Source: a virus
Length of the DNA stretch: 30,439 nt
Virus record (IMG/VR): IMGVR_UViG_3300010392_005354
Location: 1-30,439 of that record
Strand: one strand, 5' to 3'
Shown here piece by piece: positions 1-16,574 of the stretch; positions within the stretch are counted from its first letter, which is position 1; every line of letters begins with the position of its first letter. The notes below the pieces were generated by a model. That model saw only the letters and a program-made list of their open reading frames with translations. It was not told where the DNA came from and ran no database searches. A program made the position numbers and the translations under genes.

Positions 1-504
1 CCCCTTAATCCCCCCGCCCACCCTGACGACGACGACTGCGCGCGCGAGCTGGCAGGGAAGGTTTGCGAGATCGTCGGCCTCGGGACGGAGCGGCCGGGCT
101 TGTGGTCCGGCGTCGAGGAGATGGCCAGGCGGTGGTTGGCGGCCGGCTGCACCGAGGCCGACGTCATCGCCGGCGTCACCACGGCGACGGCGAAGCGGAA
201 GGGCAGCGGGACCTGGCCGCCGGCCAGCCCGAGCTACTTCGACCAGCCGATCGCCGACGCCGAGGTCGCGCGGCTGCGGCCGATGCCGGCGGGCAGGTCG
301 AGCAACGGACGCCATCACGGGACCGTCTGCCTCGTTGCGCCGAGTTCGGCCGAGTACGAGGGCGGGGACGAGCGTCTGGCCAGGATGTGGAAGGCGGGCA
401 TGCGGGACATGCCGGCGTTCCGAAACAAGGTGATCGTCGCGCGCCTGGTGCGCAAGAAGCTGATTGCAGTCGATCAGCCGGAACTCAAGGTGGTGTCGTC
501 ATGA
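1..504 (+). CDS. Phage replication-module protein, C-terminal part (5' end outside window)
   Basis: The reading frame is open from the first base, so the gene begins upstream of the window. The TTG at 100 is only an internal possible start. The visible 167 residues contain a helical block (about residues 13-60) ending in a Pro-rich PPASPSYFDQPIADA segment. That block plus 'SYF..I.DA' is familiar from the C-terminal end of HTH/replication-type proteins in alphaproteobacterial prophages. A basic C-terminal tail follows. The DNA-binding N-terminus that would confirm this is missing. The stop overlaps the next start as ATGA, so it is translationally coupled to the NusG-like gene. The role in replication is inferred, while the frame and stop are directly seen. 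Confidence 0.6.
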   Translation, partial: PLNPPAHPDDDDCARELAGKVCEIVGLGTERPGLWSGVEEMARRWLAAGCTEADVIAGVTTATAKRKGSGTWPPASPSYFDQPIADAEVARLRPMPAGRSSNGRHHGTVCLVAPSSAEYEGGDERLARMWKAGMRDMPAFRNKVIVARLVRKKLIAVDQPELKVVSS

Positions 505-1343
505 CCGAAGACCTCGGCCTGCGCGGCGTACGGCCGGACCCGGAGCTTTCGGCCGGCCGGGAACCGGACGCGTCATGTCCTGATTGTCCCAGCTGCGGGC
601 ACTTCTCGACCCGACTGCCGCGGGGCAGGTTCTGGTGCGCGAACTTTCGATGCGATGCGGTGTTCACCGCAGGCGGCCCGACCGGCCTGACGATCGTTGG
701 CCGGGTCGCCCGGTCCGGAGGCCTGCCGGTGACGATCCTGCCGACCGCACGCGCGAGGGATCTCGGACCGCGGCTGGGCGACGGGCTCGGCGAAGAGGTG
801 CCGATCTCGACAACCGAGATGACGTGGTACGCGCTGCGGTGCGAGATCGGCCGGGAGGCGGAGGTCAAGGACGACCTGGGGCTGATGCGGCTGGCTGCCT
901 ACGTGCCGCTGATGTCGTTCTGGATCCGGGCGAAGCGCACCCGGAAGCACCAGCCCGAGCAGCCTTACCGCGAGATCGAGCGCCCGATCTTCCCCGGCTA
1001 CGTCCTCATGGGCGCCTGGCGCGGGTATGCCGTCGACTGGATCGCGGTGCGGGGCATCGACCACGCGCACGGCCCCGTGCTGACGACCGACGACGCGCCG
1101 TCCGTGCTGCCAGGAGCGGAGATCCGGTCGCTGATCCTGCGGGAGGCGCAGGGCGAGTTCCGTGGCCCGCTGCCCAAGGCCATGCGGAAGCGGAGCGCTG
1201 CGGCCGATGTGAAGCCGGGGGACGAGGTCGAGATCGAGGGCACCGACTATGTCGACCGGATTGCCGGGATCGACGGGATCCGGGCGGTGCTGGCGAACAG
1301 CGGGGTCAGGGTGCACCTGTCGAGCTTGCGGAAGGTGGGGTAG
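501..1343 (+). CDS. NusG/RfaH-like transcription antiterminator with N-terminal zinc ribbon
   Basis: The 280-residue product has a cysteine cluster at the N-terminus (C26, C29, C32, then C46 and C51 in WCANFRC), which looks like a zinc ribbon. A NusG N-terminal (NGN) domain starts near residue 107 (MTWYALRCEIG, YVPL, and RPIFPGYVLMG at 161-171). A KOW-type C-terminal domain spans about 236-280 (VKPGDEVEIEG ... VRVHLSSL). NusG paralogues bind RNA polymerase and suppress pausing or termination, so a role in late transcription is inferred. ATG 501 is preferred because AAGGTGG lies about 7 nt upstream. The in-frame ATG at 819, which would give NusG alone, lacks a well-placed Shine-Dalgarno. No Q-like protein was recognised elsewhere. 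Confidence 0.82.
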   Translation: MTEDLGLRGVRPDPELSAGREPDASCPDCPSCGHFSTRLPRGRFWCANFRCDAVFTAGGPTGLTIVGRVARSGGLPVTILPTARARDLGPRLGDGLGEEVPISTTEMTWYALRCEIGREAEVKDDLGLMRLAAYVPLMSFWIRAKRTRKHQPEQPYREIERPIFPGYVLMGAWRGYAVDWIAVRGIDHAHGPVLTTDDAPSVLPGAEIRSLILREAQGEFRGPLPKAMRKRSAAADVKPGDEVEIEGTDYVDRIAGIDGIRAVLANSGVRVHLSSLRKVG

Positions 1344-1344
1344 G

Positions 1345-2034
1345 ATGGCGGCCATGAAAACTGACCGAAAGCTTCACGAGAGCGATACTGTTCGCCTCGA
1401 CGAAATCGTGATGATTGCCGACGCCGTGTTCGGCCTCGATCACGAGTCAGGATCCTTCGCGGCCATTGAATTCCGTGACGGTATGCGGGTCGAGGTTACC
1501 GAGGATTTGACGGTGCGGCGGAGCCGTCCGACGACATCAGATCCGTCGGACGGGAAGCGGGTGGTGATCGAGGGCAAGGCGGATCCCGCCCTCGACGGGC
1601 AATTCGCCGGCCTCATAGAGGAAGCCCGCGTTCTCGGGCTCGGTGTGCCGGAACTCGAGGCGGCGCTTCTGGCGCGGGCAGAGAGGGTGGAGGCGCAATT
1701 AGCTGCGTTGCGCATAGCAGCGGTTGCCGCACAGGACTTGCGGTTATACGGGACCGCAGATCAGGTGCCGAGGCACTACGTGACAATGGCGCTCGACGCC
1801 TTGGCGAATGCGACACCGCCGGAGGGCGAGAGCATGTTGCGGTATAGCGACGACCTGTCCGGCGCGTCGTGGCCGAAGGGCGAGACGACGATCGGCGAGG
1901 ATTCCGCCGGTGTCGCAGTCGTCGGTCGGACAGCTCGGCGGATGACCATCCAGACCGGCCCCGCTGCTCCTGACGTCGCGCCGGACGAGATCGTGCTGAA
2001 CGGCCGACGGTACATGTCGGCCAAGGAGAAGTGA
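1345..2034 (+). CDS. Unknown protein, 229 aa
   Basis: I do not recognise a family. The start at 1345 follows GGAAGGTGGGG with about 6 nt spacing, and a second ATG at 1354 is also possible. The N-terminal 60 residues look beta-rich (FAAIEFRDGMRVEVTEDL). A central stretch (about residues 75-125) is Ala/Leu/Glu-rich and helical, possibly coiled coil. The C-terminus is mixed and ends in a short beta-like NGRRYMSAKEK. Base use is less GC-biased than in the structural genes. The gene sits one base after the NusG-like stop and overlaps the next gene as TGATG, so it belongs to the same operon. Confidence 0.7.
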   Translation: MAAMKTDRKLHESDTVRLDEIVMIADAVFGLDHESGSFAAIEFRDGMRVEVTEDLTVRRSRPTTSDPSDGKRVVIEGKADPALDGQFAGLIEEARVLGLGVPELEAALLARAERVEAQLAALRIAAVAAQDLRLYGTADQVPRHYVTMALDALANATPPEGESMLRYSDDLSGASWPKGETTIGEDSAGVAVVGRTARRMTIQTGPAAPDVAPDEIVLNGRRYMSAKEK

Positions 2035-2162
2035 TGGCTGAGGTTCTGACCGCGATTCAGTGGGTGGCCGCGGTCGTCACGTTCGTGGCTGGCATCGGTG
2101 TTGCCTGGAACTGCGTCAACATCTGGCGTCAGTGCAGCCGGATCGACAGAGCGCGCGGATGA
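2034..2162 (+). CDS. Small single-pass membrane protein, 42 aa
   Basis: A short ORF starts in a TGATG overlap with the preceding stop and itself ends in an ATGA overlap with the next start. The tight coupling on both sides argues that it is real. The product has one hydrophobic segment (about residues 7-28, Ile/Val/Ala-rich with WVAAVVTFVAGIGVAW) followed by a basic, Cys/Arg-containing tail (RQCSRIDRARG), predicting N-out/C-in topology. AAGGAG lies about 8 nt upstream of the ATG. It could be a holin- or antiholin-like peptide or a host-membrane effector. The sequence does not decide. Confidence 0.6.
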   Translation: MAEVLTAIQWVAAVVTFVAGIGVAWNCVNIWRQCSRIDRARG

Positions 2163-2482
2163 ACCGCCGCCAGTTTCTCATCAGCGCCGGAGCGACCACC
2201 GCAAGCGGGGCGTTCCTGGTCGGACCGGCCGAACTGATCATGGGTGAGGCCTGGTTGGCATCGCCGGCGGAGATGCTGGACTTGGCGCGGCGGGAGTTCG
2301 AGGATGCCATGTCGCGGGCGCTGACCGGAGACACCGACGGCATCGAGAGGGTCGGCCCCTTGAGCATCCGGTACACGAACCTCGCGTACCCGTTCTACGG
2401 GTCGTCGGAAGACTACGCGCGGATCTTGACGCAGGTGCAGAACACCATCAGTGCCATGGCCGACATGCTGCCGGAGGCATGA
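2159..2482 (+). CDS. Small exported protein with Tat signal (1 of 2)
   Basis: The 107-residue product begins MNRRQFLISAGATT followed by a hydrophobic, Ala/Gly-rich stretch. This is a classical twin-arginine (RRxFL) signal, so export of a folded protein is predicted. The mature part (about residues 35-107) is helical and acidic, with no recognised catalytic motif and no cysteines. The start overlaps the previous stop (ATGA), and its own stop overlaps or abuts the next gene. The next gene has the same signal type, which suggests a functional pair. The protein's role is unknown. Confidence 0.68.
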   Translation: MNRRQFLISAGATTASGAFLVGPAELIMGEAWLASPAEMLDLARREFEDAMSRALTGDTDGIERVGPLSIRYTNLAYPFYGSSEDYARILTQVQNTISAMADMLPEA

Positions 2483-2484
2483 AC

Positions 2485-2967
2485 ATGCATCGTCGCCAGT
2501 TCCTCCTCGGGTCGACAGCGCTGGTAGCGGCGCCGGTGATGCCGCACGTTCCGCAACCATGGGCGACAGGTGGCGTGTTGTCGTCCGGTGGCATCAGGAC
2601 CATCGGCGAGCACGCTCCGGTTCACAGCGTCCCGTTCCCCGGTGCCTCCGAGCCCTGGCTGGTCGCCTCCAACCGGTTGTTCCTCGACCTGAAGAACAGT
2701 TTGGCCGAGGCGTGCGAAGCCTTCGACATCCAGACGGAGGCGGCGGCGGCGTTGCGAGTCACCCGAGCCTACATGGTCGAGTCCATGCGGGGCGGCCGGG
2801 AAGTCGCCGAGTTGGCGATGCGCGATCTGCTTGCCGACGCGGAGGAGAACGGCCGCCGCCGGAGCCCGGACTTCGCCGCTCTCCGATCCGACGCGGAGGC
2901 ACTCGGACTATCGGCAGAACAGATCGACATCGGGCAGCCGCCCACCACGCGTTGGTTGACCCGGTAG
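2485..2967 (+). CDS. Small exported protein with Tat signal (2 of 2)
   Basis: The product is about 160 residues and starts MHRRQFLLGSTALVAAP, again a twin-arginine signal with a likely AxA-type cleavage region. ATG 2485 has GGAGG 7 nt upstream. ATG 2479, which overlaps the preceding stop as ATGA, is possible but its Shine-Dalgarno would be too close. The mature part starts with a Pro/Gly-rich segment and is then helical, with Arg/Glu-rich stretches (AELAMRDLLADAEENGRRR). No family is recognised. Its last codons contain the TTGACC of the candidate late promoter. Confidence 0.68.
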   Translation: MHRRQFLLGSTALVAAPVMPHVPQPWATGGVLSSGGIRTIGEHAPVHSVPFPGASEPWLVASNRLFLDLKNSLAEACEAFDIQTEAAAALRVTRAYMVESMRGGREVAELAMRDLLADAEENGRRRSPDFAALRSDAEALGLSAEQIDIGQPPTTRWLTR

Positions 2968-2984
2968 CCGAAACGCTGCATATT
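2956..2984 (+). promoter_or_regulatory. Candidate sigma70-type promoter for the tRNA and late genes
   Basis: TTGACC at 2956-2961 and CATATT at 2979-2984 are separated by exactly 17 nt. Each is close to the -35 and -10 consensus, which stands out in GC-rich DNA. It sits at the end of a gene and just ahead of the only substantial gene-free stretch in the left half (2968-3128) and the tRNA, so it is well placed to start late transcription. The predicted start is near 2991. This is based on sequence match only. Confidence 0.4.
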
Positions 2985-3128
2985 CCAGGCTGACTACGCT
3001 CCGTCCGTGATGGGGATGCTCGCATCCTGCCCGGGAGCACCCAGGCACCGCCTCCAGGCCCTCGACGGCCATCGGTGGCGCCGGGTGCGGAAGCGTGGTG
3101 ATCAGGACATCGAGATCGATACCAAATC
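2985..3128 (+). promoter_or_regulatory. Gene-free structured leader between candidate promoter and tRNA
   Basis: No convincing coding frame was found here. It can fold: GGATG (3014-3018) and CATCC (3023-3027) flank a CTCG tetraloop, and GCACCC (3037-3042) can pair with GGGTGC (3083-3088). There is no T-run, so it does not look like a terminator. Such a leader could be an antitermination or loading site for the NusG-like protein, but that is a hypothesis. Confidence 0.3.
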
Positions 3129-3202
3129 GCGGTCTTGGCCGAGAGGCTAGGCGCCGGGCTTCCATCCCGGTCACGTCGATTCGATTCCGTCAGGCCACTC
3201 CA
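3129..3202 (+). tRNA. tRNA-Gly (anticodon UCC), CCA encoded, slightly degenerate
   Basis: The 74-nt cloverleaf has acceptor arms 3129-3135 and 3192-3198 (6 of 7 paired, one C-A mismatch). The D-arm is GCC/GGC with A14, G15 and the GG pair in the loop. A perfect 5-bp anticodon stem CCGGG/CCCGG encloses loop CTTCCAT, giving anticodon TCC at 3161-3163 (reads GGA, Gly). The T loop is TTCGATT, but its stem has two mismatches, including an A-C pair at the usually invariant 53-61 position. T73 and CCA are encoded (3200-3202). It lies between phage genes, so it is probably phage-borne. The mismatches leave open a decaying or atypical tRNA. Confidence 0.75.
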
Positions 3203-3216
3203 ATCCCGAGGAAATC

Positions 3217-3525
3217 ATGAAAACCCTGGAGACCTACCTGGTCGACGCCGAGCACAAGGGCGTCATCGACCACCGACTGCGTATCCAGCGTGGGCGCGTC
3301 GGCGAGGTCCGGTTTTATATCCATCCGGATGGCGTCGATGGTGACACCCTGGACTTCGAGGTGCAGGGCAACGGGCTGTTCCCGGTGCTGATGCCGATCG
3401 ATGGTGTTGCCGTCGACCTGATCGAGGGACCGGCGCTGGCCACCAAGGCGGACGTGGAGGGAGTCAAGATCCAGGTTGCCGAACTCGGCAACTATCTTAC
3501 GCGTACCCTGCCAGATGGCCGATAG
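3217..3525 (+). CDS. Unknown protein, 102 aa
   Basis: The ATG at 3217 follows GAGGAAA with good spacing, 14 nt after the tRNA. The sequence has a beta-rich core (GEVRFYIHPDGVDGD, LDFEVQGNGLFPV) and a more helical C-terminus. No signal peptide or membrane segment is seen. The last 11 nt overlap the methyltransferase gene. I do not recognise a family. Its position, first after the tRNA and before the terminase, suggests an early-late accessory protein, but no function can be assigned. Confidence 0.65.
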   Translation: MKTLETYLVDAEHKGVIDHRLRIQRGRVGEVRFYIHPDGVDGDTLDFEVQGNGLFPVLMPIDGVAVDLIEGPALATKADVEGVKIQVAELGNYLTRTLPDGR

Positions 3526-4318
3526 GGCTGATGTGCCGACGTGGCGTCCCGGCGACGGCCCCGAGGCGCACCGTTCCAGCCTCGACTATTCGCCCGAGGC
3601 AATCGCGCAATTTCGTTCGCACCGAATATCGGCGGGCCACCAGAAGTGGCCTGACCAGACGGCGGCATTCGATGGCGACTGGTACGCCCGGCCGACTGCC
3701 GCAATCGCCATACCTGCGCTGCGCACCATGCGCGACCGGTTCCGGGCGATGGTGTCGGATGTCGGCCTGTTCGACAGGCTGATTGAAGACGACGGCCGCT
3801 GCGGCGGCGCCGACTGGCGCCTCGACGGGGTGCGCGTCACCTCGACCTCGATCTGGTCAGCGTACTACGCATGCCGGATCCTCGAGCTGGCCCCGCATGC
3901 TCGCTCGGTCGTCGACATCGGAGGCGGCTACGGCCACCTCGCCCATGTGCTCGCCGAGTTCTACGCGAGCGTGACTCTGGTCGATCTTCCCGAAGTGCTC
4001 CGCCTCGCCGAGGCGTTCACGGACCGGGTGACACTGGCGCACCCATCCGGCCAGTGGGGCGGCGACCTCATCGTCAACACCATGTCGATGCAGCACATGA
4101 CGCCGGCCAATCTCGCCTACTACGGCGCCCGAATCGCAGCATGCCGGCCCGCCGGGTTGTACCTGGTGAACCGCACGGTCAAGCGAGACCCCACCGATAC
4201 GCCGCTCGATGCCTATCCGTTCCTCACCGACTTCGCAGAGCAGTCCCGGCGCGCGATCGGACCGAGCCACGCGGAAGTGTTCGCCACCTGGAGGCGCAGC
4301 GATGCCCATGCAGCCTGA
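3515..4318 (+). CDS. SAM-dependent methyltransferase, putative sugar O-methyltransferase (NanM-like)
   Basis: The 267-residue product has a class I SAM-binding motif I, VVDIGGGYG (132-140), followed by a second strand with an acidic residue, TLVDLPEV (154-161). A later block is DLIVNTMSMQHM (184-195). The WSAYYACRI segment just before motif I and the LxDLPEVL block resemble the putative sugar O-methyltransferase family (NanM-like), which acts in surface-polysaccharide loci. DNA methyltransferase motifs such as DPPY are absent. ATG 3515 is chosen over an upstream in-frame start at 3476 because it gives only an 11-nt overlap. The substrate is inferred, while the methyltransferase fold is well supported. 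Confidence 0.75.
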   Translation: MADRADVPTWRPGDGPEAHRSSLDYSPEAIAQFRSHRISAGHQKWPDQTAAFDGDWYARPTAAIAIPALRTMRDRFRAMVSDVGLFDRLIEDDGRCGGADWRLDGVRVTSTSIWSAYYACRILELAPHARSVVDIGGGYGHLAHVLAEFYASVTLVDLPEVLRLAEAFTDRVTLAHPSGQWGGDLIVNTMSMQHMTPANLAYYGARIAACRPAGLYLVNRTVKRDPTDTPLDAYPFLTDFAEQSRRAIGPSHAEVFATWRRSDAHAA

Positions 4319-4523
4319 CCAGCCGGCCGCTCCGCTCGACCGCCGCGAGATCACCCGCCGCCTCGCGCTCTGGGGCGGCGACGCGGCCCCGCTCGACGCG
4401 ATGCTCGACGGCCACACCCGCCGGTCGGCCGGCGCCGGCACCGCCTCCCCCGCCTCGACGGGGCCCCTGGGAGGGGGCGCCCACCACGGGTCGGGCAACC
4501 AGCCGTGCAAATCCACCGGCTGA
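4302..4523 (+). CDS. Short unknown protein upstream of terminase, 73 aa
   Basis: ATG 4302 follows GGAGG with 7 nt spacing and overlaps the methyltransferase stop by 17 nt. The first 47 residues look like a genuine helical peptide (DRREITRRLALWGGDAAP). The C-terminal third is Gly/Ser/Pro-rich and coincides with a self-complementary DNA stretch (about 4446-4480, CCTCCCCC facing GGGAGGGGG). The tail may therefore be shaped by an RNA hairpin rather than by protein selection. No family is recognised. Coding status rests mainly on the Shine-Dalgarno and the gene spacing. Confidence 0.5.
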   Translation: MPMQPDQPAAPLDRREITRRLALWGGDAAPLDAMLDGHTRRSAGAGTASPASTGPLGGGAHHGSGNQPCKSTG

Positions 4524-4569
4524 GAGCTTCTGACCGGCCGTTCAACATCAACATCGCGGGGCGGATCGG

Positions 4570-5100
4570 ATGGCATCGAAGTCCGCTCGGACCTTCAACC
4601 TCAATGAGGCCGCGGCGATCATCGGCGTGACGCGCCAGACGCTCGGCCGATGGATCGATCTTGGCGCGCCGGTGATCACCCGGGCCGATCGCTCAGCCGG
4701 CATCGAGTGGGAGTTGTCCGTCGCCGAGATCATGGAGTGGCGGATCAAGCGGGCGGTCGATGACGCGGTCGCCCGGTACGAGGGCGGCGCCGACAAGATC
4801 ACCAAGGACGAGGCCGATCGCCGCCGAGCCGTCGCCCAGGCGATCACGGCCGAGGTCGAGGCCGACGAGACGCTTCGGAGCGTGGTCGCGGTCGCCGACG
4901 TTGTCGACGTCGTCACCCAGGAATACGCCGCGGTGCGCACGCACCTGCAGTCGGTCGGATCCAAGGTCGCAGGCCGCGCCGCTTCGATGACGAGCGCGCC
5001 TGCGATCCAGGAGCTGGTCGACGAGGCGATCACCGACGCCCTGGAGGCGCTGACCTACGATGGACGCCTCGCTCAGGATCGGCCAGCACAAGCGGGGTGA
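4570..5100 (+). CDS. Terminase small subunit, Nu1 family
   Basis: The 176-residue protein is close to the length of lambda Nu1 (181). The N-terminus holds a winged helix-turn-helix (about residues 10-55: FNLNEAAAIIGVTRQTLGRW), the DNA-recognition domain that binds cos-type sites. The ELSVAEIMEWRI segment follows, then a long charged helical region (60-120) and a C-terminal helix that would contact the large subunit. It recognises concatemeric DNA and recruits gpA for packaging. Its end overlaps terminase large by 41 nt, as expected for a co-translated pair. Confidence 0.88.
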   Translation: MASKSARTFNLNEAAAIIGVTRQTLGRWIDLGAPVITRADRSAGIEWELSVAEIMEWRIKRAVDDAVARYEGGADKITKDEADRRRAVAQAITAEVEADETLRSVVAVADVVDVVTQEYAAVRTHLQSVGSKVAGRAASMTSAPAIQELVDEAITDALEALTYDGRLAQDRPAQAG

Positions 5101-7117
5101 GTATGCCTTCGGCCAGGCGGCACTGACGGAGTCGCTTCGCCAGGTCCGCGGCCACGCCCTGATGATCCGCCGCCGGATCACCGGGTCCGAATGGGCGGAT
5201 CGCCACGGGTACCTGCCCGCCGGCACTGGCGCCGAGACGGGCCGGATCAAGCTCTACGGCTACCAGCGCGGCATCCTCGACGCATTCTGCGACCCGACGA
5301 TTCCGCTGATCACCGTCCCGAAGGCGGCGCGCGTCGGGTACACGCGACTGCTGCTTCTGGCGACGGCCTACCACCTCGAGCAGGACCCGACGACGTGTGC
5401 CATCGCGCAGCCGACCATCCCCGACGCCGAGGACTTCGGACGCTCGGAGGTCGGGCCGATGTTGCGGGACACACCGGCGCTCGCGCGGCTGATGCGGCCG
5501 ATCCGCAAGGGCGAGGCCAGGGACACGCTGACCGACATCTTCCTGTCGAACGGCGGAGTGTTGAGGCTCCGGGGTGCGGCGTCTGACGATGCGTTCCGCC
5601 GCTACCCGGCGCGGTTCCAGGCCGCAGACGAGGTCGACGCCGAGGGCTGGTCGTCGGCCGGCGCCAAGAGCCAGGGCGACAAGTTCAAGCTGTTCTGGAC
5701 CCGTGGCGAGACCTACTGGAACCGCAAGCAGATCCGCGGCGGCACGCCGGTCATCGAAGAGACGTCGCGGGTCTGGCGAGAGTGGCTGAGGTCGGACCAG
5801 CGGCGGTACTTCGTCCCCTGCCCGCACTGCGGGGAGATGCAGTTCCTGGAGTGGGGCGGCCCCGAGGTCGCCCACGGCCTGAAGTGGGAGCTCGACGACG
5901 GCGGCACGATCAAGGGGGTCTGGTACGTCTGCCGCAACGGCTGCGTGATCGAGGAGGGCCACAAGGTCGAGATGGATGCCGCCGGCGAATGGCGGCCGAC
6001 GGCCAAGCCCCGCACGCCCGGGCATGCCGGCTTCCACCTCTGGACCGGCATGTCTCTCAACCCGAACGCGGCCTGGCCTGTGATCGTCCAGGAATGGCTC
6101 GACGCACAGAGCGACCCGGCGACGCTGGTTCAGCCGTTCGTCAACCTCCGCCTCGGCCGGCCGTACAAACTGACCTATGGCCAGGAACTGAAGGTCGAGA
6201 GGTTCACCGGCCGGCGCGAGGCGTACCCATCCGAGCTGCCGCCCGGGGTGCTGTTCCTGACGGTGGGTGCCGACGTGCAGTCGGCCGAGGGCGTCGATCC
6301 GCGCATCGAGGCGAGCATCTACGGCTGGGGCAAGGGCTCCGAGTGCTGGCTGATCGGGCACTGGATCATCCGCGGCGACCCGTCGGGCCCGAAGGTCTGG
6401 CAGGAGCTGTACGACCTGCTCAAGCGCGGGTTCGTCGCGGTCGACGGCCGGCGGTATCCGATCTCCGCTGCGGCGATCGACTCCGGCGGCCACCACACGG
6501 CCGAGACCTACGAGTTTGCATCGGCCCATTCGTCGGAGAGCAACCCCAGGATCTGGGCGATCAAGGGTGCATCCGAACAGAAGGGCCGCCGCCGCCCGGT
6601 GTGGCCCCGCAAGCCGTCGAAGGGCAAGGGTGGGACGGTCTACCTGATCGGCGGCAACGCGGCGCGCGACTTCGTCTACCGGTCCCTGGCGGTCGAGCGG
6701 CCGGGTGCACGCTACGTCCACTTCCCGGCGCAGGCCCCGAGCGGGTCCGAGGATCTGGACGACGAATGGTTTCGCCAGCTGACGCGCGAGCGCCTGACGA
6801 TCCGCAAGGGTGGGTTCACCGAGTGGGTCAAGCCGAAGGAAAGCCACGAGGCCGGCGTCTGCCTGGTCTACGCCTATGCCGCGGTGTGCGGGCTGCAACA
6901 GGTCGACCGGCGGTTCCTGCGTGCAGTCGAGGCCGGGCGCCTGCCGGTCACGCCGCAAGTCGCCGAGCCGGAGGCCGATGAGCCCCAGGCGGATCCCGAG
7001 GTCGAGGCGGCCGAAACCGAAGCCGCACCGGCGCCCGCGCCCGTGGTCAAGGCCGTGGATGCGCCGGCGAAGCCGAAGAGACGGCGCTCGGTGCGCAGCT
7101 CGTTCATGAGCCGGTAG
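5060..7117 (+). CDS. Terminase large subunit, GpA family
   Basis: The 685-residue ATPase/nuclease translocates DNA into the prohead. A lambda gpA-type Walker A variant is present at about 86-97 (VPKAARVGYTRL). An acidic Walker B-like FQAADEVD lies at 186-193. A four-cysteine zinc-like insert uses C254, C257, C291 and C295. The nuclease domain begins near VGADVQ (402-407), with D405 a likely metal ligand and IDSGGHHT downstream. The protein is about 45 residues longer than lambda gpA because of an Ala/Pro/Glu-rich tail ending in KPKRRRS. That tail may be a flexible portal-binding extension. It is followed 8 nt later by gpW. Confidence 0.95.
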   Translation: MDASLRIGQHKRGEYAFGQAALTESLRQVRGHALMIRRRITGSEWADRHGYLPAGTGAETGRIKLYGYQRGILDAFCDPTIPLITVPKAARVGYTRLLLLATAYHLEQDPTTCAIAQPTIPDAEDFGRSEVGPMLRDTPALARLMRPIRKGEARDTLTDIFLSNGGVLRLRGAASDDAFRRYPARFQAADEVDAEGWSSAGAKSQGDKFKLFWTRGETYWNRKQIRGGTPVIEETSRVWREWLRSDQRRYFVPCPHCGEMQFLEWGGPEVAHGLKWELDDGGTIKGVWYVCRNGCVIEEGHKVEMDAAGEWRPTAKPRTPGHAGFHLWTGMSLNPNAAWPVIVQEWLDAQSDPATLVQPFVNLRLGRPYKLTYGQELKVERFTGRREAYPSELPPGVLFLTVGADVQSAEGVDPRIEASIYGWGKGSECWLIGHWIIRGDPSGPKVWQELYDLLKRGFVAVDGRRYPISAAAIDSGGHHTAETYEFASAHSSESNPRIWAIKGASEQKGRRRPVWPRKPSKGKGGTVYLIGGNAARDFVYRSLAVERPGARYVHFPAQAPSGSEDLDDEWFRQLTRERLTIRKGGFTEWVKPKESHEAGVCLVYAYAAVCGLQQVDRRFLRAVEAGRLPVTPQVAEPEADEPQADPEVEAAETEAAPAPAPVVKAVDAPAKPKRRRSVRSSFMSR

Positions 7118-7125
7118 GAGGGCGC

Positions 7126-7332
7126 ATGGCCTGGACTCAGGACGACGCCGACGCTCTGAAGGCTGCCATCGCTGCCGGCGCCAAGGATGTGACCTACAGC
7201 GACGGCTCGCGCGTCGTCTATCGGTCGCTGGCCGAGATGCGCGAGACGCTGCGGCTGATCGAGAACGAGGTCGCCGGGTCGACCGTCAAGCGGACCCGCA
7301 CGCTGCGGTTCACCACGAGCAAGGGGTTCTAG
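7126..7332 (+). CDS. Head-tail joining protein gpW
   Basis: The product is 68 residues, the same length as lambda gpW. It has the characteristic opening helix, an SDGSRVVYRSLAEM hairpin and a second helix ending in a basic tail. gpW stabilises packaged DNA and forms the platform on the portal for the connector. AGGAGG sits just upstream of ATG 7126, and the gene lies between terminase and portal exactly as in lambda. Confidence 0.9.
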   Translation: MAWTQDDADALKAAIAAGAKDVTYSDGSRVVYRSLAEMRETLRLIENEVAGSTVKRTRTLRFTTSKGF

Positions 7333-7335
7333 CCG

Positions 7336-8850
7336 ATGGCCGCTCGCTCGCCCGTGCGCTTCAGGATCAAGGGGACGTCGGTCTATGTGGAGCCGCGCGC
7401 CTCGACTGCCTATGAGACGACCGGCACCGGCCGACGCTCGCTGGCGATGCGCGTCGGCAGCTTCGGACCGAACGCCGCACTCGACTATTCGTCGGACGCG
7501 CTGCGGGCGCAGGCTCGCGACGCCGACCGCAAGAACGGTCTCGCGAAGGTCATCGCCGACCGGCTGGCGGCGAACATCGTCGGCACCGGGATCATGCCGC
7601 AGCCGACCTCGACGCGGGCCCGCGATCTGTGGGCGCGCTGGACGGACGAGGCATCGGCCGACGGAACGCTCGACTTCTACGGCATGCAGGCGCAGATCGC
7701 CCGCGCCCTCCCCGTATCCGGCGAGTGCTTCATCCGGTTCCGCCCGAGGCGCCCGGAAGACGGCCTGACGGTCCCGCTCCAGCTCCAGGTGCTGGAATCC
7801 GACTACGTGCCCATGGACAAGAACGAGACGCTGCCGAACGGGCGCGGCTGGATCCGGCAGGGGGTCGAGTTCAACCCCGTCGGTCAGCGGGTCGCATACT
7901 GGATGTACCGCCAGCATCCGTCCGACCGGCAAGTCCTCCAGACCTTCGACATGATGCCGGTGCGCGTGCCGGCTTCCGAGGTGCTGCACGTCTATGACGC
8001 GTTCAGCGCCCGGCCCGGCCAGGTCCGCGGCGTTCCCTGGATCACCCAAGCGTTGCCGAAGCTGAAGGACCTGGACGGCTACGACGACGCCGAACTGATG
8101 CGCAAGAAGGTCGCGGCGATGTACGTCGGGTCGGTCAAGCGCAACCTGCCGCAGGGCATCACCGCCGAGGAACTGAAGGACATCTGGGGCGAGGATGCCG
8201 AGCTAGAGGACGGCATCGGGTCGGTGTCGTCGGAACCGGGGACGATCAACCTCCTGGAGCCCGGCGAAGAACTGGAGTGGAGCAGCCCCCAGGACGTCGG
8301 CGGCATGTACGAGGTGTACAAGCGCGACCAGCATCGGCTGATCGCCGCTTTCGCAGGCCTGCTGTACGAGCAGCTGACGGGCGACTTCAGCAGCCTCAAC
8401 GACCGGACCTGGCGCGCGGCGTTCAACGAGTTCAAGCGCCGGTGCGAGATGTGGCAGCACCACATTCTGGTCTATCAGTTCTGCCGGCCGGTGTGGTCGC
8501 GATGGATGGCGACGGCGCGTCTGACGGGCGCGCTGCGGCCGGCGGAAGCGCAGGACGTGGTGAAGTGGGTGCCGCAGGCGTGGCCCTACATCAATCCGAC
8601 CCAGGACATCGAGGCGACCGAAGCCGAGATCCGCGCCGGCATCGCCTCGCGGTCGCAGAAAGCATCCGAGCGCGGCCTCGACTCCGCAGAGATCGACGCC
8701 GAGCAGGCTGCGGACAACGCGCGGGCCGACAAGCTGGGGCTGAAGTACGATTCCGACGGCAGGCAGAAGAAGGGCAGCGGGTCGACCCAGCAGCCCGGCC
8801 AGTCGGCGCAGGACGGACAGCAGGACAGCCAGGGGAAGCAGGCGGCATGA
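7336..8850 (+). CDS. Portal protein, lambda gpB family
   Basis: The 504-residue protein has typical lambda-type portal blocks: ARDADRKNGLAKVIADRLA, NIVGTGIMPQP, GECFIRF, LQVLESDYVP and VEFNPVGQRVAYW. Together with its position 3 nt after gpW, this makes the call firm. The portal forms the dodecameric vertex through which DNA enters and to which the connector and tail attach. The last 60 residues are Gln/Gly/Ser-rich and probably disordered. Its stop overlaps the next start (ATGA). In lambda the protease would follow directly, but here a glycosyltransferase-like gene intervenes. Confidence 0.93.
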   Translation: MAARSPVRFRIKGTSVYVEPRASTAYETTGTGRRSLAMRVGSFGPNAALDYSSDALRAQARDADRKNGLAKVIADRLAANIVGTGIMPQPTSTRARDLWARWTDEASADGTLDFYGMQAQIARALPVSGECFIRFRPRRPEDGLTVPLQLQVLESDYVPMDKNETLPNGRGWIRQGVEFNPVGQRVAYWMYRQHPSDRQVLQTFDMMPVRVPASEVLHVYDAFSARPGQVRGVPWITQALPKLKDLDGYDDAELMRKKVAAMYVGSVKRNLPQGITAEELKDIWGEDAELEDGIGSVSSEPGTINLLEPGEELEWSSPQDVGGMYEVYKRDQHRLIAAFAGLLYEQLTGDFSSLNDRTWRAAFNEFKRRCEMWQHHILVYQFCRPVWSRWMATARLTGALRPAEAQDVVKWVPQAWPYINPTQDIEATEAEIRAGIASRSQKASERGLDSAEIDAEQAADNARADKLGLKYDSDGRQKKGSGSTQQPGQSAQDGQQDSQGKQAA

Positions 8851-9701: not shown

Positions 9702-9716
9702 CACCGGGAGGTGCGC

Positions 9717-10637
9717 ATGACGCAACCCCACGACTATCCGCACGTCCTGTCGCGGCTGATCAACGAGCCGCTGCTGGCGCACCCGACGAAGGCCGAGGTG
9801 GTCGTCGCGGCCGTGCTGCGCCGCCAGGGGGTCGAGGTGAACGTGGCGGCGTCAGCTGAGTTCGTGCAGGCGCCGAAGGCCGGGCCGCTGCAGGAAAAGC
9901 GAATGGTCGACCGCAGCGGAGGCATGCCGTTCCTGTTCGACCCGTCGAGCGGCATCGCGGTCATCAACATCTCTGGCAGCCTGGCGCACAAGCAGGGCTT
10001 CATCGGCAAATCGTCCGGCGTGATGGGCTACGACGGGATCGGGGCGCAGTTCCAGACCGCCATGGACTCCACGATGGTCCGCGGCATCATACTCGACCAT
10101 CACACGGCCGGCGGAGAAGTCCACGGCGCGTTCCAGCTGGCCGACTGGATCTTCGCAGCCCGCGGGCGCAAGCCGATCATCGCGGTTTCCGACGAGATGG
10201 CCTACTCGGCCGGCTACCTGCTCGCCTGCGCCGCCGATGAGGTCTGGCTGGCGTCCAGCACCGCCGGCGTCGGCTCCATCGGCGCCGTCGTGGTGCATAT
10301 GTCCTACCAGACGATGCTGGAAGCCGAGGGCATCAAGGCGACGGTGTTCCGGTTCGGCGAGAGGAAGGCCGACGGCAACCCGTTCGAGGATCTGAGCGCC
10401 GACGCCGCAGACCGGATCCAGGCCCGCATCGACTACCTCGGCCGGGAGTTCGTCGGCCGGGTCGCGAAGTGGCGCGGCATCTCCGAGAAGGCCGTGATCG
10501 ACACCCAGGCCGCCACCTTCGTCGGCCAGGAGGCCGTGCGCCTCCGCCTCGCGGACGGCATCGCCGATCCGATCGACGTGTTCCAGGCGTTCGCCCGGGA
10601 CATCGCCCGCCGGCCGTTCGGCCGACCGCTTCAGTAA
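9717..10637 (+). CDS. S49 family head maturation protease (lambda gpC-like)
   Basis: The 306-residue SppA-type serine protease carries the catalytic serine block DEMAYSAGYLLACAADE (Ser164) and a lysine in FGERKADGNPFEDL (Lys217), the Ser/Lys dyad of S49 peptidases. It cleaves scaffold and portal during prohead maturation. ATG 9717 is preferred over GTG 9711 because GGGAGG lies about 5 nt upstream of it. It is shorter than lambda gpC (439 aa) because the scaffold portion, which in lambda is the C-terminal Nu3 part, is a separate gene here. Confidence 0.93.
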   Translation: MTQPHDYPHVLSRLINEPLLAHPTKAEVVVAAVLRRQGVEVNVAASAEFVQAPKAGPLQEKRMVDRSGGMPFLFDPSSGIAVINISGSLAHKQGFIGKSSGVMGYDGIGAQFQTAMDSTMVRGIILDHHTAGGEVHGAFQLADWIFAARGRKPIIAVSDEMAYSAGYLLACAADEVWLASSTAGVGSIGAVVVHMSYQTMLEAEGIKATVFRFGERKADGNPFEDLSADAADRIQARIDYLGREFVGRVAKWRGISEKAVIDTQAATFVGQEAVRLRLADGIADPIDVFQAFARDIARRPFGRPLQ

Positions 10638-10649
10638 CAGGAGGCCGTG

Positions 10650-11237
10650 ATGGCAATCAGCGACCACCTGCGGAGCCTCATGGGTTCCGCGGCACCCACC
10701 GACGTGCGCGCGAGCGCGACCGCCTCGGAGCCCGAGGCGCCGGAAGCCCCGGAGGATGACACCCCGGAGCCCGAGGTCGAGCCCGAGGAAGAGGCGGGCA
10801 AGGGCGATGGCGAGAAGGCCGAGGCCGATCCGCCCGCGCCCGAGACCCCGAAGGCCGCAGACCCGGCGGAGATCGCGGAATACTGCGCGGCCAACGGCTG
10901 CCCGGCGCTGGCCGGCCCGCTGATCCGCGAGAAGGCGACCATGGACCAGGTCAAGGCCAAGGTCGGCTCTGTCGAGACCACCCGGGCCCTGGTCAAGGAC
11001 GCCGGCCTGCTGGCGCCCGCCATCAAGGCGGATGCGGCCGACGCCTACATCGCCGCCGGCACGTCCGTCGAGGATGTCCGCGCCTCGCTCTGGGATCGCA
11101 TCGTGAAGGCGCAGAGCCCGGAGATCCGCAGTTCGATCGCCGCCGATACCGGCGTTCCGAACGCCGCCGAGGGCTGGAACAAGGCCGTCGGCAAGGTCAA
11201 CGCACGCATCGAAGCCACGCAGCCGAAGGAGGGCTGA
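10650..11237 (+). CDS. Capsid scaffold protein (Nu3-like, separate gene)
   Basis: The 195-residue product has an acidic Pro/Glu-rich first third (about residues 25-75), as in capsid scaffolds. A block follows (DPAEIAEYCAANGCPALAGP ... EDVRASLWDRIVKAQ) that closely resembles the segment usually found C-terminal to phage S49/ClpP proteases. ATG 10650 has AGGAGG 5 nt upstream, and GTG 10647 would be too close. The gene directly follows the protease and precedes gpD, so it acts with them to build the prohead and is then degraded. The assignment relies on position, composition and this block. Confidence 0.7.
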   Translation: MAISDHLRSLMGSAAPTDVRASATASEPEAPEAPEDDTPEPEVEPEEEAGKGDGEKAEADPPAPETPKAADPAEIAEYCAANGCPALAGPLIREKATMDQVKAKVGSVETTRALVKDAGLLAPAIKADAADAYIAAGTSVEDVRASLWDRIVKAQSPEIRSSIAADTGVPNAAEGWNKAVGKVNARIEATQPKEG

Positions 11238-11240
11238 ACC

Positions 11241-11621
11241 ATGACCACCCTGACGGAAGCCTACCCGGCGGCCAACTTCATCCTGTCGGAAGCCGCCGGC
11301 ACCCGCTCGCGCGAGAGCGCGGCCATCGCGGTCGGCCAGACCCTCGTCGTGGGCGAGATCGTCCAGGACGACGGCTCCGGCGGCCTGACCACCATGACCG
11401 GCACCCTGGATTCGGCCGGCGACCTGGTCGCCCAGGCCAAGGGCATCATGGTCTACCCCGGCGCGTCCGACTCCACCGAGACGCAGACCCGCACCTACAT
11501 CGCCCGCGATGCCGAGGTGAACGGCAACCTGCTGACGTTCCCGACGGAGACCTCCACCGGGAACGAGCGCGTCCTGACCATCGCGAGCCTCGCGCTGCTC
11601 GGCATCATCGTCCGCGACTGA
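11241..11621 (+). CDS. Head decoration protein, gpD-like
   Basis: The product is 126 residues (lambda gpD 110). It is beta-rich with no signal peptide and includes the block DLVAQAKGIMVYPGASD, where D-type proteins describe the 'AKGI...' strand, and an RDAEVNGNLLTFP segment. It lies between scaffold and major capsid protein, as in lambda. It forms trimers that cement the expanded capsid. The extra N-terminal residues resemble those of many non-enterobacterial D homologues. Confidence 0.85.
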   Translation: MTTLTEAYPAANFILSEAAGTRSRESAAIAVGQTLVVGEIVQDDGSGGLTTMTGTLDSAGDLVAQAKGIMVYPGASDSTETQTRTYIARDAEVNGNLLTFPTETSTGNERVLTIASLALLGIIVRD

Positions 11622-11677
11622 GCGGTTCCCTGACACCACGACGGCGCTGAACCGCCGATCACGAAGGAGCAAAGACC

Positions 11678-12700
11678 ATGGTTATGCTCGACGTCTTCAA
11701 CTCCGACGCGTTCAGCGTCACCAACCTCACGGACGCGGTCAACAAGATCAGGTTCGTGCCCGGCCGCATCGGACAGATGGGGCTGTTCAACGAGTCCGGA
11801 GTCACCACCACCTCGGTTGCCATCGAGGAGAAGGATGGGACCCTCGCGCTCGTCTCGCCCGCCGCCCGCGGCGCGCCCGGCGGAACCCTGACCAAGGTCA
11901 AGCGCACCCTGCGCAATTTGACCGTCCCGCACTTCCCGATCGAGGACTCGGTCATGGCCGAGGAGGTCCAGGGCGTCCGGGCATTCGGGTCCGAGACCGA
12001 GATCGAGACGGTGATGGGGAAGGTCGCCGAGCGCGGTGCCATCCACACCCAGTCTTACGCGGCAACGCAGGAGTACAGCCGGATCGGCGCGGTCAAGGGC
12101 ACGGTCACCTACGCCGATGGCACCACTCTGAACCTGTTCACGGAGTTCGGCGTGTCGCAGCTGACCGAGGTCGACTTCGACCTGGACAACACCGCGCCGG
12201 CGTCCGGCGCTCTTCGCAAGGCCTGTGCGGGCGTGGTCCGGTCGATGGCGGGTGTCCTCGAGGGGCTCCCGTTCTCCGGTCTGCATGCGTTCTGCGGCGA
12301 CGCGTTCTTCGACGACCTGATCGCGCATCCGGAGGTCCGCGAGACCTACAAGAACTGGACGGCGGCCCAGGAACTCCGCCAGGGCTACGTCCAGGGCGGT
12401 CTGTCCTACGGCGCGTTTCCGTTCGGCGGAATCATGTGGGAGAACTACCGCGGCTCCGTCGGCTCGACGACCTTCGTCAACACCGACAAGTGCCACATCT
12501 TCCCGACGGGCGTTCCCGGGCTCTTCCGGACCTACTACGCGCCGGCCGACTACATCGAGACCGTGAACACCATGGGTCGGCGCCTGTACATGAAGCAGTA
12601 CATGATGCTGAACGGCAAGGGCATCCATCTGGATACCCAGATGAACGCCCTCGAGATCTGCACCCGCCCGCGGGCGCTGATCCAGGGCAAGCGCACCTGA
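11678..12700 (+). CDS. Major capsid protein, gpE family
   Basis: The protein has 340 residues against 341 in lambda gpE. It opens MVMLDVFNSDAFSVTNLTDA and includes VKRTLRNLTVPHFPIEDSVMAEEVQGVRAF (about 69-98) and FPTGVPGLFRTYYAPADYIE near the C-terminus, all typical of the family. It forms the HK97-fold shell. AAGGAG is 8 nt upstream of the ATG, and a 56-nt gap separates it from gpD, so a separate strong initiation region is plausible. Confidence 0.95.
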   Translation: MVMLDVFNSDAFSVTNLTDAVNKIRFVPGRIGQMGLFNESGVTTTSVAIEEKDGTLALVSPAARGAPGGTLTKVKRTLRNLTVPHFPIEDSVMAEEVQGVRAFGSETEIETVMGKVAERGAIHTQSYAATQEYSRIGAVKGTVTYADGTTLNLFTEFGVSQLTEVDFDLDNTAPASGALRKACAGVVRSMAGVLEGLPFSGLHAFCGDAFFDDLIAHPEVRETYKNWTAAQELRQGYVQGGLSYGAFPFGGIMWENYRGSVGSTTFVNTDKCHIFPTGVPGLFRTYYAPADYIETVNTMGRRLYMKQYMMLNGKGIHLDTQMNALEICTRPRALIQGKRT

Positions 12701-12704
12701 TCGC

Positions 12705-14210
12705 GTGAAGCCGACGCCTTGGCGCATCCCCCGGGAGTGGGCGGGCGAGACCTGCTTCATTCTCGGGGGTGGCGCTTCCCTCAAGGGCTTCGACGCCTCG
12801 ATCCTGCGCGGGCGCGGTCGCGTCATCGGGGTCAAGGAGTCGGGCCTGACCCTCGCGCCATGGGCCGACGTGCTCTACTGGTGCGACCCGCGCTGGATAG
12901 ACGCGAACTGGCAACGGCTGCACCTGCACACCGGCCAGTACAAGATCAGCCGCGCCGAGCTCGACAAGCGCGGCACCCCGAACATCCCGGACGGCAAGGC
13001 GAAGCGGATCACCGAGGCGCTGCTGGCGTCAGGCGTTCGCTACGTCCCGCGCGATCCGGTGACGCCCCTCTCGGTCGACCCGACGAAGACCGGCGCCGCA
13101 ATCGATGCCGGCGGATCCGCGATCAACGTGGCCTCCCTGTTCGGGTCGCCGCTGATCGCCCTCCTGGGGTTCGAGTTCAGGCCGGTCGGCCACTGGCACG
13201 ACCGCACGATCAAGGAGCCGGAAGCCGCCCATTACGAGCGCTTCATGGCGCCGATGGAGCGCATGACCGCCGCACTGCGCCAGGCCGGCGTCCGCGTCGT
13301 CAACTGCACGCCCGGTTCTGCGCTGACCTGCTTTCCCTTCCAGCCGCTCGAGGAGTTCCTCGCGATGGACTTCACTCCCCACGTCCGCACGCTGTTCCAG
13401 ACGCGCGGTCGGCTGTCGACCTTCACGCCCGACGGCGGCTCGGCGGTCAACTGCCGGGTCATCCGCCAGGGCGGCGGAGAGCCGGTGCAGATGGGGCCGA
13501 TCAAGGTCGTCGTCGACCGCACCCGGTTCCACGTCCGGCGCGCCGAGGTGGCATCGCCGGCCGCCGGCGACGTGCTGACCTTCGGCGGCAGCCCCTTCAC
13601 CATCGATGCGGTGCAGCCGGTCGAGCGCGACACCGACCAGCAGATGTGGCAGCTCGAAGCGTCCTGGGGCGCGACCGTCACCTATCGCAGCACGACCGGG
13701 TCCGGCATCACGCAGAGCCCGCCGCAGGGCTCCAGCTTCAAGGTCTACGCCGCGGCGCTGGCCGGGGTGTCGGCGATCTCGATAGACGCCACGTTCACCG
13801 TCGGCAAGCTGCTGGGCGGCGACACCTTCACGATCGCGGGGGACGCGACGGTCTACACGATCGCCAGCCCGGTCGCCGCGTCGTCGAACCGCTTCACGAA
13901 CGTGCCGTTCACGCCCGTGCTCGCCGCCGATGCGGCCGAGGATGCGGCCGTCACCTTCGATTTCAGCCGCGACTACAGCGTCCGCGCCGCGATCGCCGGC
14001 TACTCGGCCGAGGAGATCGCGGGCGGCGTCCAGGTCGGCGACCGGCGCGTGGTCATCCTGGAGGACGCGCTGGACGATGCCGGCATGTCGGACAGCCCGA
14101 AGGCGACCGACCGGCTGACGTTCGAGGGCAAGCAGTTCACCGTCGTGAATGCCACGGCGATCTACGGCGACGGCGTTCCGGTCGCCTGGGATCTGCAGGT
14201 CCGGGGCTGA
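12705..14210 (+). CDS. Fusion: MptE/DUF115-like domain + head-tail connector domains
   Basis: The 501-residue ORF starts at GTG 12705. Residues 1-220 form a Rossmann-like domain (CFILGGGASLKGFD, WADVLYWCDPRW, GGSAINVASL, LIALLGFEFR, VVNCTPGSALTCFPFQPLEE) that resembles MptE-like/DUF115 phage proteins. Those normally end just after the PLEE block. From M221 (ATG 13365) begins a connector-like part: a beta-barrel unit, a middle GDTFTIAGDATVYTI module, and a second unit resembling the first (LTFGGSPFTIDAV versus LTFEGKQFTVVNA). The connector part sits where lambda has FII. GAGGAG lies 9 nt before ATG 13365, so the connector could also be made separately. The fusion is the odd feature here. Confidence 0.7.
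   Translation: MKPTPWRIPREWAGETCFILGGGASLKGFDASILRGRGRVIGVKESGLTLAPWADVLYWCDPRWIDANWQRLHLHTGQYKISRAELDKRGTPNIPDGKAKRITEALLASGVRYVPRDPVTPLSVDPTKTGAAIDAGGSAINVASLFGSPLIALLGFEFRPVGHWHDRTIKEPEAAHYERFMAPMERMTAALRQAGVRVVNCTPGSALTCFPFQPLEEFLAMDFTPHVRTLFQTRGRLSTFTPDGGSAVNCRVIRQGGGEPVQMGPIKVVVDRTRFHVRRAEVASPAAGDVLTFGGSPFTIDAVQPVERDTDQQMWQLEASWGATVTYRSTTGSGITQSPPQGSSFKVYAAALAGVSAISIDATFTVGKLLGGDTFTIAGDATVYTIASPVAASSNRFTNVPFTPVLAADAAEDAAVTFDFSRDYSVRAAIAGYSAEEIAGGVQVGDRRVVILEDALDDAGMSDSPKATDRLTFEGKQFTVVNATAIYGDGVPVAWDLQVRG
13365..14210 (+). CDS. Possible independently initiated head-tail connector (in-frame internal start)
   Basis: Within the long fusion ORF, ATG 13365 has AGGAG at 13351-13355, giving 9 nt spacing. 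It lies exactly where the N-terminal family usually ends and the connector homology starts (MDFTPHVRTLF). Translation from here would give a 281-residue connector without the Rossmann domain. This is an alternative product of the same frame, not an additional reading frame. Confidence 0.4.
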   Translation: MDFTPHVRTLFQTRGRLSTFTPDGGSAVNCRVIRQGGGEPVQMGPIKVVVDRTRFHVRRAEVASPAAGDVLTFGGSPFTIDAVQPVERDTDQQMWQLEASWGATVTYRSTTGSGITQSPPQGSSFKVYAAALAGVSAISIDATFTVGKLLGGDTFTIAGDATVYTIASPVAASSNRFTNVPFTPVLAADAAEDAAVTFDFSRDYSVRAAIAGYSAEEIAGGVQVGDRRVVILEDALDDAGMSDSPKATDRLTFEGKQFTVVNATAIYGDGVPVAWDLQVRG

Positions 14211-14827
14211 TGGCCCGCCTCAAGCCGCGCGAGGCCGTCGTCCACCTGCGGGAGCGGCTGACCGGCGAGCCTCGCCGGCAGATGCTGATCCGGGTGGCGC
14301 GCGAGACCATCGCCGAAGTGAGCGCCATCAACGACCGCGCGACAGGCCAGCGGGTCGGACACGAGGTCATCGTCGACGGGCGCCGTGGCGCGGCGATCGA
14401 GAGCGTGAAGCCCGGCGGCGTCGTGGTGGCCCTGTTCGCGGTCCGCGCGGCTGCGATCGACTTCACCTGGGAGGCCCTGGCGCAGCTTTCGCCGGTCGAC
14501 CAGAACCCGAAGACCGTCGACAGCATCGTCTATCGCGACCGCCACCTGCTGCTGGTCAACGGCGAGGAGCGCGAGCCCCCGGTCGACGTGCAGCCCGACG
14601 ACATCGTCACCTTCGTAAACCTGCTGCCCTACGCCCGGAAGATCGAAAAGGGCTGGTCGAAGAAGCAGGCGCCGGACGGGGTCTATGAGGCGGCGACCGC
14701 CATCGTGAAGGCGCGGTTCGGCAACATCGTCGACGTGCGGTTCTCCTACGGCACGTTCCTCGGCGCCACGGCTTCGCGCGACACCAGGTACCCGTACATC
14801 CAGCTCTCGCCGAAGAGGCGCCGATGA
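14210..14827 (+). CDS. Tail completion protein (gpZ/HK97 gp10-like)
   Basis: The 205-residue product (lambda gpZ 192) starts in a TGATG overlap with the connector stop. A basic N-terminus is followed by helices (RVARETIAEVSAIND). The C-terminal block has WSKKQAPDGVYEAATAIVKARFGNI and a closing beta hairpin ending in basic residues. Position between connector and tail terminator, length, and the helix-then-barrel layout fit a tail completion/neck protein that joins the tail to the head. Similarity is moderate, and the call leans on gene order. Confidence 0.65.
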   Translation: MARLKPREAVVHLRERLTGEPRRQMLIRVARETIAEVSAINDRATGQRVGHEVIVDGRRGAAIESVKPGGVVVALFAVRAAAIDFTWEALAQLSPVDQNPKTVDSIVYRDRHLLLVNGEEREPPVDVQPDDIVTFVNLLPYARKIEKGWSKKQAPDGVYEAATAIVKARFGNIVDVRFSYGTFLGATASRDTRYPYIQLSPKRRR

Positions 14828-15240
14828 CCAGCGCCATCGTCAAGGCTGCCGTCGAGACCATCCTCGCCGGCTGGGACGAGACCGCCGCGCCGATCAAGCG
14901 GCCGAACGAGACCTTCACGCCGCCGGCGGGCCCGTGGGCGATGATCGCCTATCCGGGGTCCGGCATCCGCCGGGCAGACATCGGGGCGCCCGATGCGCCG
15001 ATGTGGGACGAGGCCGGCGCCTTCATGGTGCACGTCATGGTCCCGCTCGGCGCCACCGAGGCCGCTGCCGACGCGGTTGGAGACGGCCTCTGGGAGCTGT
15101 TCCGCGGCGAGGAACAGAACGGCGTCCGCTTCGATGAGCGCCTGCCGGGCACCTCCGGCGAGCGCGAGATCCCCGGCCTCGAGGGCGTGTTCTGGGGCAT
15201 CTCCTACGGCATCACGTTCCGCCTGCTCGCGGTCGGCTGA
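14824..15240 (+). CDS. Tail terminator protein (gpU-like)
   Basis: The product is 138 residues (lambda gpU 131). It overlaps the preceding gene by 4 nt (ATGA) and lies just before the tail tube gene, the standard place for the terminator that caps tail polymerisation and attaches to the neck. A long first helix is followed by GPWAMIAYPGSG, MVHVMVPLG and a final strand ISYGITFRLLAVG, consistent with the alpha/beta fold. The call is based on order, size and layout. Confidence 0.72.
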   Translation: MTSAIVKAAVETILAGWDETAAPIKRPNETFTPPAGPWAMIAYPGSGIRRADIGAPDAPMWDEAGAFMVHVMVPLGATEAAADAVGDGLWELFRGEEQNGVRFDERLPGTSGEREIPGLEGVFWGISYGITFRLLAVG

Positions 15241-16518: not shown

Positions 16519-16558
16519 TCCGCGGCATCCCCAGCACCCGCTCCGGCGGGGATCTGAA

Positions 16559-16574
16559 CGTCACGCGCGTGACG
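16559..16574. repeat. Perfect 16-bp palindrome after tail tube gene
   Basis: CGTCACGC is followed directly by its reverse complement GCGTGACG with no spacer. It lies 41 nt after the tail tube stop and one base before a large hairpin. A site for a dimeric DNA-binding protein or part of an RNA processing structure is possible. Confidence 0.6.

Follow-up and report, generated by a model that had tools for sequence, protein, structure and literature searches.

A NusG paralogue between replication and late genes

The window analysed here is a stretch of 30,439 nucleotides from IMG/VR virus record IMGVR_UViG_3300010392_005354, and it corresponds, with 3 mismatches, to positions 17072-47510 of an IMG/VR contig of 47,510 bases, the parent contig. 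It opens inside a replication initiation gene, whose end is followed by a NusG-like gene, a group of small genes and then the late region:

1-504, + strand: 3' end of a replication initiation gene (16775-17575 of the parent contig; phrog_2447, E=3.3e-7)
501-1343, + strand: phage NusG paralogue of 280 aa with an N-terminal cysteine cluster (open frame; Pfam, PHROGs, AlphaFold2)
576-653, + strand: putative zinc-ribbon-like C-x2-C-x2-C-x13-C-x4-C, codons 26-51 (sequence)
819-1133, + strand: NGN domain, codons 107-211, with FPGYV motif (PF02357, RfaH NGN fold match)
1200-1340, + strand: short KOW-like beta-barrel, codons 234-280 (AlphaFold2 model)
1345-2034, 2161-2482 and 2479-2967, + strand: small ORFs of unassigned function between NusG and the gap
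4570-5100, + strand: terminase small subunit, TerS (phrog_57, E=5e-24)
5060-7117, + strand: terminase large subunit, TerL (phrog_15, E=4.6e-182)
7336-8850, + strand: portal protein, the first head gene (phrog_21, E=2.8e-97)
9711-22111, + strand: late genes for protease, major head protein, neck, tail terminator, tail and tape measure
29374-29401, + strand: intrinsic-terminator-like hairpin followed by TTTTT in the late region, the sole strong one on this strand

The original prediction of a NusG paralogue at 501-1343, just ahead of about 25 kb of late genes, is borne out on both counts, the genes from TerS to the tape measure all lying downstream on the plus strand. Upstream, the parent contig carries a minus-strand CI-like repressor, a CII-like gene, helicase and methyltransferase genes and the replication initiator. 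Read from these assignments, the gene order is lambda-like (repressor, CII-like gene, replication genes, NusG, terminase, head, tail), with NusG in the position of lambda's Q. The claim that no other antiterminator is recognisable holds for the proteins scanned, where no Q- or N-type gene turned up, but a CII-like activator is present upstream in the parent contig. Two hairpins in the late region had also been singled out for transcription assays. The one at 29374 looks like a true intrinsic terminator, whereas the one at 16575-16606, near the frame start at 16569, has a perfect 12-bp stem (z -3.6) without a T-run.

Several other features of this genome merit mention in their own right. Two of the small ORFs (2161-2482 and 2485-2967) begin MNRRQFLISAGATT and MHRRQFLLGSTALVAAP, which resemble twin-arginine (Tat) signal peptides, here in a phage; neither gave a PHROG match for the frames scanned. 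The extreme start of the parent contig (1-80) consists of a short tandem repeat, GCTGGCCGTCGCCGCGCCCTGG, and two phrog_947 genes (DNA polymerase processivity factor; 6565-7875 and 14684-15934) share this one phage contig.

The assignment of the 501-1343 product to the NusG group draws on sequence profiles and on modelling. Residues 107-211 match the NGN family PF02357 in the Pfam search at E=5.6e-10, over the family cut-off, and the protein matches phrog_6386, 'transcription antiterminator', at E=2.4e-9. Structure prediction had been proposed as a check, and the AlphaFold2 model, whose input alignment included 20 relatives, does contain an NGN fold: pLDDT is mostly >90 across the NGN, about 90 in a small C-terminal beta-barrel and largely <50 over residues 1-98. 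The modelled NGN aligns with that of RfaH (8pen) at Z 12.8 and an rmsd of 2.3 Å over 101 residues, and NusG NGN structures also match. The KOW domain, described as recognisable, is so by structure (residues 234-280 against a DSIF KOW, Z 7.6, 1.2 Å over 45 residues) but not by sequence, as Pfam profiles give no match there; judged from the model, a KOW is present, but it is short and divergent. The protein scores 22.1 bits against the housekeeping NusG model TIGR00922 (cut-off 135.7), 18.8 bits against the LoaP NCBIfam model NF033641 (cut-off 125) and far under the cut-off of the UpxY model. Significant matches in Pfam, PHROGs and the PDB are NusG-type, with no Q-family match listed. The product is distinct from housekeeping NusG by score and, from its domains as read in sequence and model together, is probably a specialised NusG paralogue (NusG-SP). 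Its full-length close relatives are two near-identical phage contigs in IMG/VR; none was found in GTDB genomes and none in annotated phages at E<=0.01, and a plasmid search returned weak, partial NusG matches only.

The N-terminal cluster is real as a sequence feature. Cysteines 26, 29, 32, 46 and 51 form a CxxC-x13-CxxxxC arrangement plus one additional CxxC step, and to this extent the proposed zinc-ribbon N-terminus stands. Its fold is less secure, with no significant match for this part in Pfam, the PDB or Foldseek; the best Pfam match is weak (zf-tcix, E=0.055), as is a similarity to ribosomal eL43 (E=0.076). A single-sequence model reaches a pLDDT of about 65, which is low confidence, with strands at residues 35-39, 43-46 and 53-57 flanking the cysteine pairs. 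An Ogr/Delta-like zinc finger was considered and dropped, being absent from the Pfam matches listed. We would guess that the cluster probably forms a small zinc-ribbon fold, which might provide extra contacts, specific to this phage, with nucleic acid or polymerase.

Whether the cluster belongs to the protein depends on the start codon. Codon bias supports 660-1340, but it is weak over the first 53 codons (501-659), where the frame is the best of six by a small margin only. This weakness, and the occurrence of a comparable cysteine pattern in 0 of about 45 NusG relatives inspected, would fit translation from ATG 819, giving a plain 174-residue NusG with the cluster outside the protein. We nonetheless consider such a start improbable. 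No ribosome-binding site lies at the usual distance ahead of 819, about 315 nt would be left after the replication gene, and the upstream frame is open with its cysteines paired. A gene starting at 501 overlaps the replication gene, whose stop codon is at 502-504, and this start is favored because annotated relatives overlap that gene in the same way.

NusG and its leader in related phages

NusG genes hold the same position in other phages. The order replication initiator, NusG, gap, terminase is seen in phi3LM21 and phi2LM21 (Sinorhizobium), PPF1 (Rhizobium), Rivra (Agrobacterium), vB_MseS-P1 (Mesorhizobium) and Nsp-JY10 (Nostoc), though in some of these six a helix-turn-helix or unnamed gene stands in the initiator's place. 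Where records open at the terminase, the NusG-terminase order continues across the record ends, as it also does in Microcystis phage yong2. Contigs carrying relatives of the window's TerL (L014-L018) encode a divergent NusG ahead of TerS, and ten candidate ORFs downstream of NusG in other viral loci comprise seven for TerL, two for portal proteins and one for a ParB-like/methyltransferase fusion. That phage NusGs are annotated as antiterminators is already known (phrog_6386, GenBank records, PMC12429752); all phiLM21-like prophages studied in PMC12429752 carry a 'transcription antiterminator', and the leader is left undescribed there. The window's protein shares about 26% identity with the NusG of phi3LM21 and, on sequence comparison, is a divergent, cysteine-bearing variant of these annotated phage NusGs. 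It is homologous to them (phi3LM21, PPF1, Rivra and others) and encoded at the same gene position, but phi3LM21 and the other relatives inspected lack the cysteine cluster, and the annotated phages have the GTGC-NNNA-GCTATG leader.

In the rhizobial phages, the gap after NusG holds a common element, CCCTGA-[hairpin]-TCAGGG-CCAGTGC-NNNA-GCTATG, which in most leaders is then followed by a terminator, e.g. AGGCGGCCGAAAGGTCGCCTTTTT. Scanning IMG/VR with the DNA pattern TCARGGYCNGTGCNNNAGCTATG alone recovered at least 80 phage contigs. Among the matches listed, a NusG-family frame (E<1e-3) on the same strand ends 91-154 nt upstream of the element in 75 of 80; four of the remaining five contigs end within 115 nt upstream of it, and one is a chance match. 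We assembled 77 distinct leader copies (contigs L085-L164 plus L025, L073, L074, L077 and L081), bearing in mind that the contigs are related phages and not fully independent, so that all counts are of distinct sequences rather than evolutionary events. Across these copies, 92.7% of hairpin cells are paired, as against at most 45.3% when partners are slid by 1-3 columns. Covariation is likewise evident, with 72 double-change cells compared with 26.0 (sd 6.1) in shuffles; the search pattern had fixed the 3' strand of the outer stem but not the inner stem, and the inner stem accounts for most of the double-change cells. Of the 77 copies, 55 have a GNRA sequence as the four-base loop that follows GTGC. 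Within 100 nt downstream, an intrinsic terminator is found in 52 of 74 distinct stretches, the corresponding rate being 1.2% in 2,869 control windows and 1.9% in shuffles, and several of the other stretches have the same stem with a shorter T-run. Finally, 45 loci have downstream DNA of 2.5 kb or more, and in every one of them a terminase-like frame lies 0.8-3.0 kb downstream.

Under strict filters, model R1 matched once in 297 genomes of one order, downstream of a NusG gene, and among relatives beyond the rhizobial phages it gave weak stray matches only. For the genome scan, alignment A1 proved too divergent and alignment A3 was usable. Some divergent relatives have leaders of a different make. 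Contigs L014, L015 and L018 form one set and L016, L017 and L083 another, each set with two-tier hairpins of its own that precede GCGG(T/C)AGC; in L014-L018 a hairpin with CGGCGGGTTT lies beyond it:

L014 9000-9100; L016 8410-8570; L017 4695-4850: downstream of divergent NusGs, different two-tier leader hairpins, GCGG(T/C)AGC and then a terminator-like hairpin

The likeness of these leaders to the rhizobial one lies in the plan and not the sequence, and is an observation on few sequences rather than a test; the L016-type pattern was found in three contigs only, and a scan of IMG/VR with pattern P0002 gave no match. An ops-like motif in the gaps is not significant. Rfam gave no match in 12 loci tested, nine of them element-bearing phages, and neither Rfam nor the literature searched contains a description of the leader, its covariation or its linkage to NusG, terminator and terminase. 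Relative to those sources, the leader, the covariation and the near-perfect linkage, as read from these alignments, appear to be new.

The gap in the window

The window's own main non-coding gap after the NusG region spans 2968-3216 and contains the following:

2956-2984, + strand: promoter-like TTGACC-17-CATATT, a candidate late promoter at the gap edge (suggestive only)
3037-3088, + strand: candidate leader hairpin with outer stem GCACCC..GGGTGC (suggestive only)
3085-3094, + strand: GTGCGGAAGC, a fit to GTGC-NNNA-GC, which is invariant in the element of the rhizobial phages (suggestive only, via position)
3129-3202, + strand: tRNA-Gly, anticodon TCC (41.9 bits, cut-off 29)

The tRNA gene corrects the earlier reading of 2985-3216 as a leader, since it lies inside that interval. 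It encodes its CCA, has one acceptor mismatch and sits between the NusG and terminase genes. The other pieces are each near chance when taken alone, while their placement is suggestive. The promoter-like pattern was found once in 5.1 kb where 0.5 are expected, GTGC-NNNA-GC occurs twice in the window against 1.35 expected, and the stretch holding the candidate hairpin (2985-3128) has a folding z of -1.6. The best ops-like match in the window (10/12, at 3086) was equalled by 74 of 200 shuffles and is not significant. At E<=10, model R1 found no copy of the rhizobial GTGC-NNNA-GCTATG element anywhere in the window, and the stricter scans for intrinsic-terminator-like sites came up empty for the interval from NusG to TerS (1344-4570). 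The window's loading site for NusG is perhaps 3037-3094.

A gap so poor in conserved elements and intrinsic terminators would suit a NusG that acts globally, competing with host NusG on RNA polymerase and blunting Rho-dependent termination of phage RNA everywhere; it would have no dedicated loading site, and the leader would serve another factor. The NGN fold with its RNA-polymerase-binding motif is also consistent with such action. A global factor, however, would not need the NusG-element-terminase linkage seen in the relatives (NusG directly upstream in 75 of 80 listed element contigs, terminase downstream in 45 of 45), and because of this linkage we regard global action as unlikely. We think it similarly doubtful that the element and terminator after NusG just end the early operon, with the late genes served by an independently activated promoter downstream. 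Terminators are common at the ends of operons, and the window does have its promoter-like site at 2956-2984, but in the relatives NusG, element and terminator are narrowly spaced and co-occur over 77 distinct copies, and a covarying RNA structure lies upstream of the terminator. An end-of-operon terminator needs no such structure, which is why we disfavor this explanation.

Proposed late-gene control by a NusG paralogue

We instead favor antitermination of the late genes from a leader, and think it likely that the NusG paralogue does for the window's phage what Q does for lambda. The paralogue would be made at the end of the early operon, and its NGN would bind transcribing RNA polymerase at a site in the leader, between the NusG and terminase genes, a contact that we infer because of the fold and the FPGYV motif. 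NusG would then stay on the polymerase, which would read through terminators into late genes spanning roughly 25 kb. The corresponding site in the related rhizobial phages would be the two-tier hairpin, then the GTGC-NNNA-GCTATG hairpin just ahead of the intrinsic terminator. That leader-terminator arrangement is established by comparison of sequences, and since it is of the LoaP/RfaH sort, loading at the leader and processive read-through into late genes can be proposed for the phage NusGs. For read-through, the NusG paralogue LoaP depends on a small hairpin in the leader ahead of a terminator, and it acts against NusA (PMC12691694), and recruitment of RfaH occurs at ops (PMC7593976). Taken together, the comparative data support a Q-like, LoaP-like antitermination module in such phages.

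The idea that the window's protein is an operon-specific antiterminator thus gains from its Q position and from the relatives' leader and terminator before the terminase, but the lack of an intrinsic terminator in 1344-4570 counts against it. So do the lack of the rhizobial element in the window and the three small ORFs and tRNA gene that intervene. The candidate promoter and GTGCGGAAGC are near chance and the ops-like resemblance is not significant. The KOW is short and divergent, and the parent contig has its CII-like activator.

The proposed module can be compared with several known systems. Like LoaP of Bacillus velezensis, the protein is a NusG paralogue associated with a long gene cluster, and a leader RNA hairpin precedes an intrinsic terminator (PMC12691694); it differs in falling under the NF033641 cut-off, in being phage-borne and in its extra cysteine cluster, and the relatives' leader is different and larger. 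RfaH provides the best structural match to the NGN, and operon-specific recruitment is proposed for both, but the window's KOW is modelled (one model) as a beta-barrel rather than alpha-helical. Lambda Q and Q21 share with it a gene position that closes the early operon and precedes the terminase and other late genes, and a terminator in the relatives' gap, whereas the protein fold appears unrelated and loading is proposed to occur via a NusG-type site. Spt4/Spt5 likewise brings together a zinc-binding module and an NGN, Spt4 being the zinc-finger partner of Spt5 (PMC7819879), but here cysteine module and NGN are on one chain, and there is no sequence or structural sign of resemblance to Spt4.

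A broader scenario is possible, though we hold it only tentatively. A large group of phages, mainly of Alphaproteobacteria, may have swapped Q for a NusG paralogue and a dedicated leader RNA before a terminator, and the window's NusG may have gained a zinc-ribbon-like head that accounts for a change of specificity to a different leader (3037-3088 with GTGCGGAAGC).

For many phages beyond the lambda group, it is not known what turns on the late genes. The protein, leader and terminator described here are compact and directly testable parts. If the proposal is true, NusG paralogues paired with a conserved leader and terminator would represent a new and widespread way of controlling late genes, and the mechanism of RfaH and LoaP would extend to phages.
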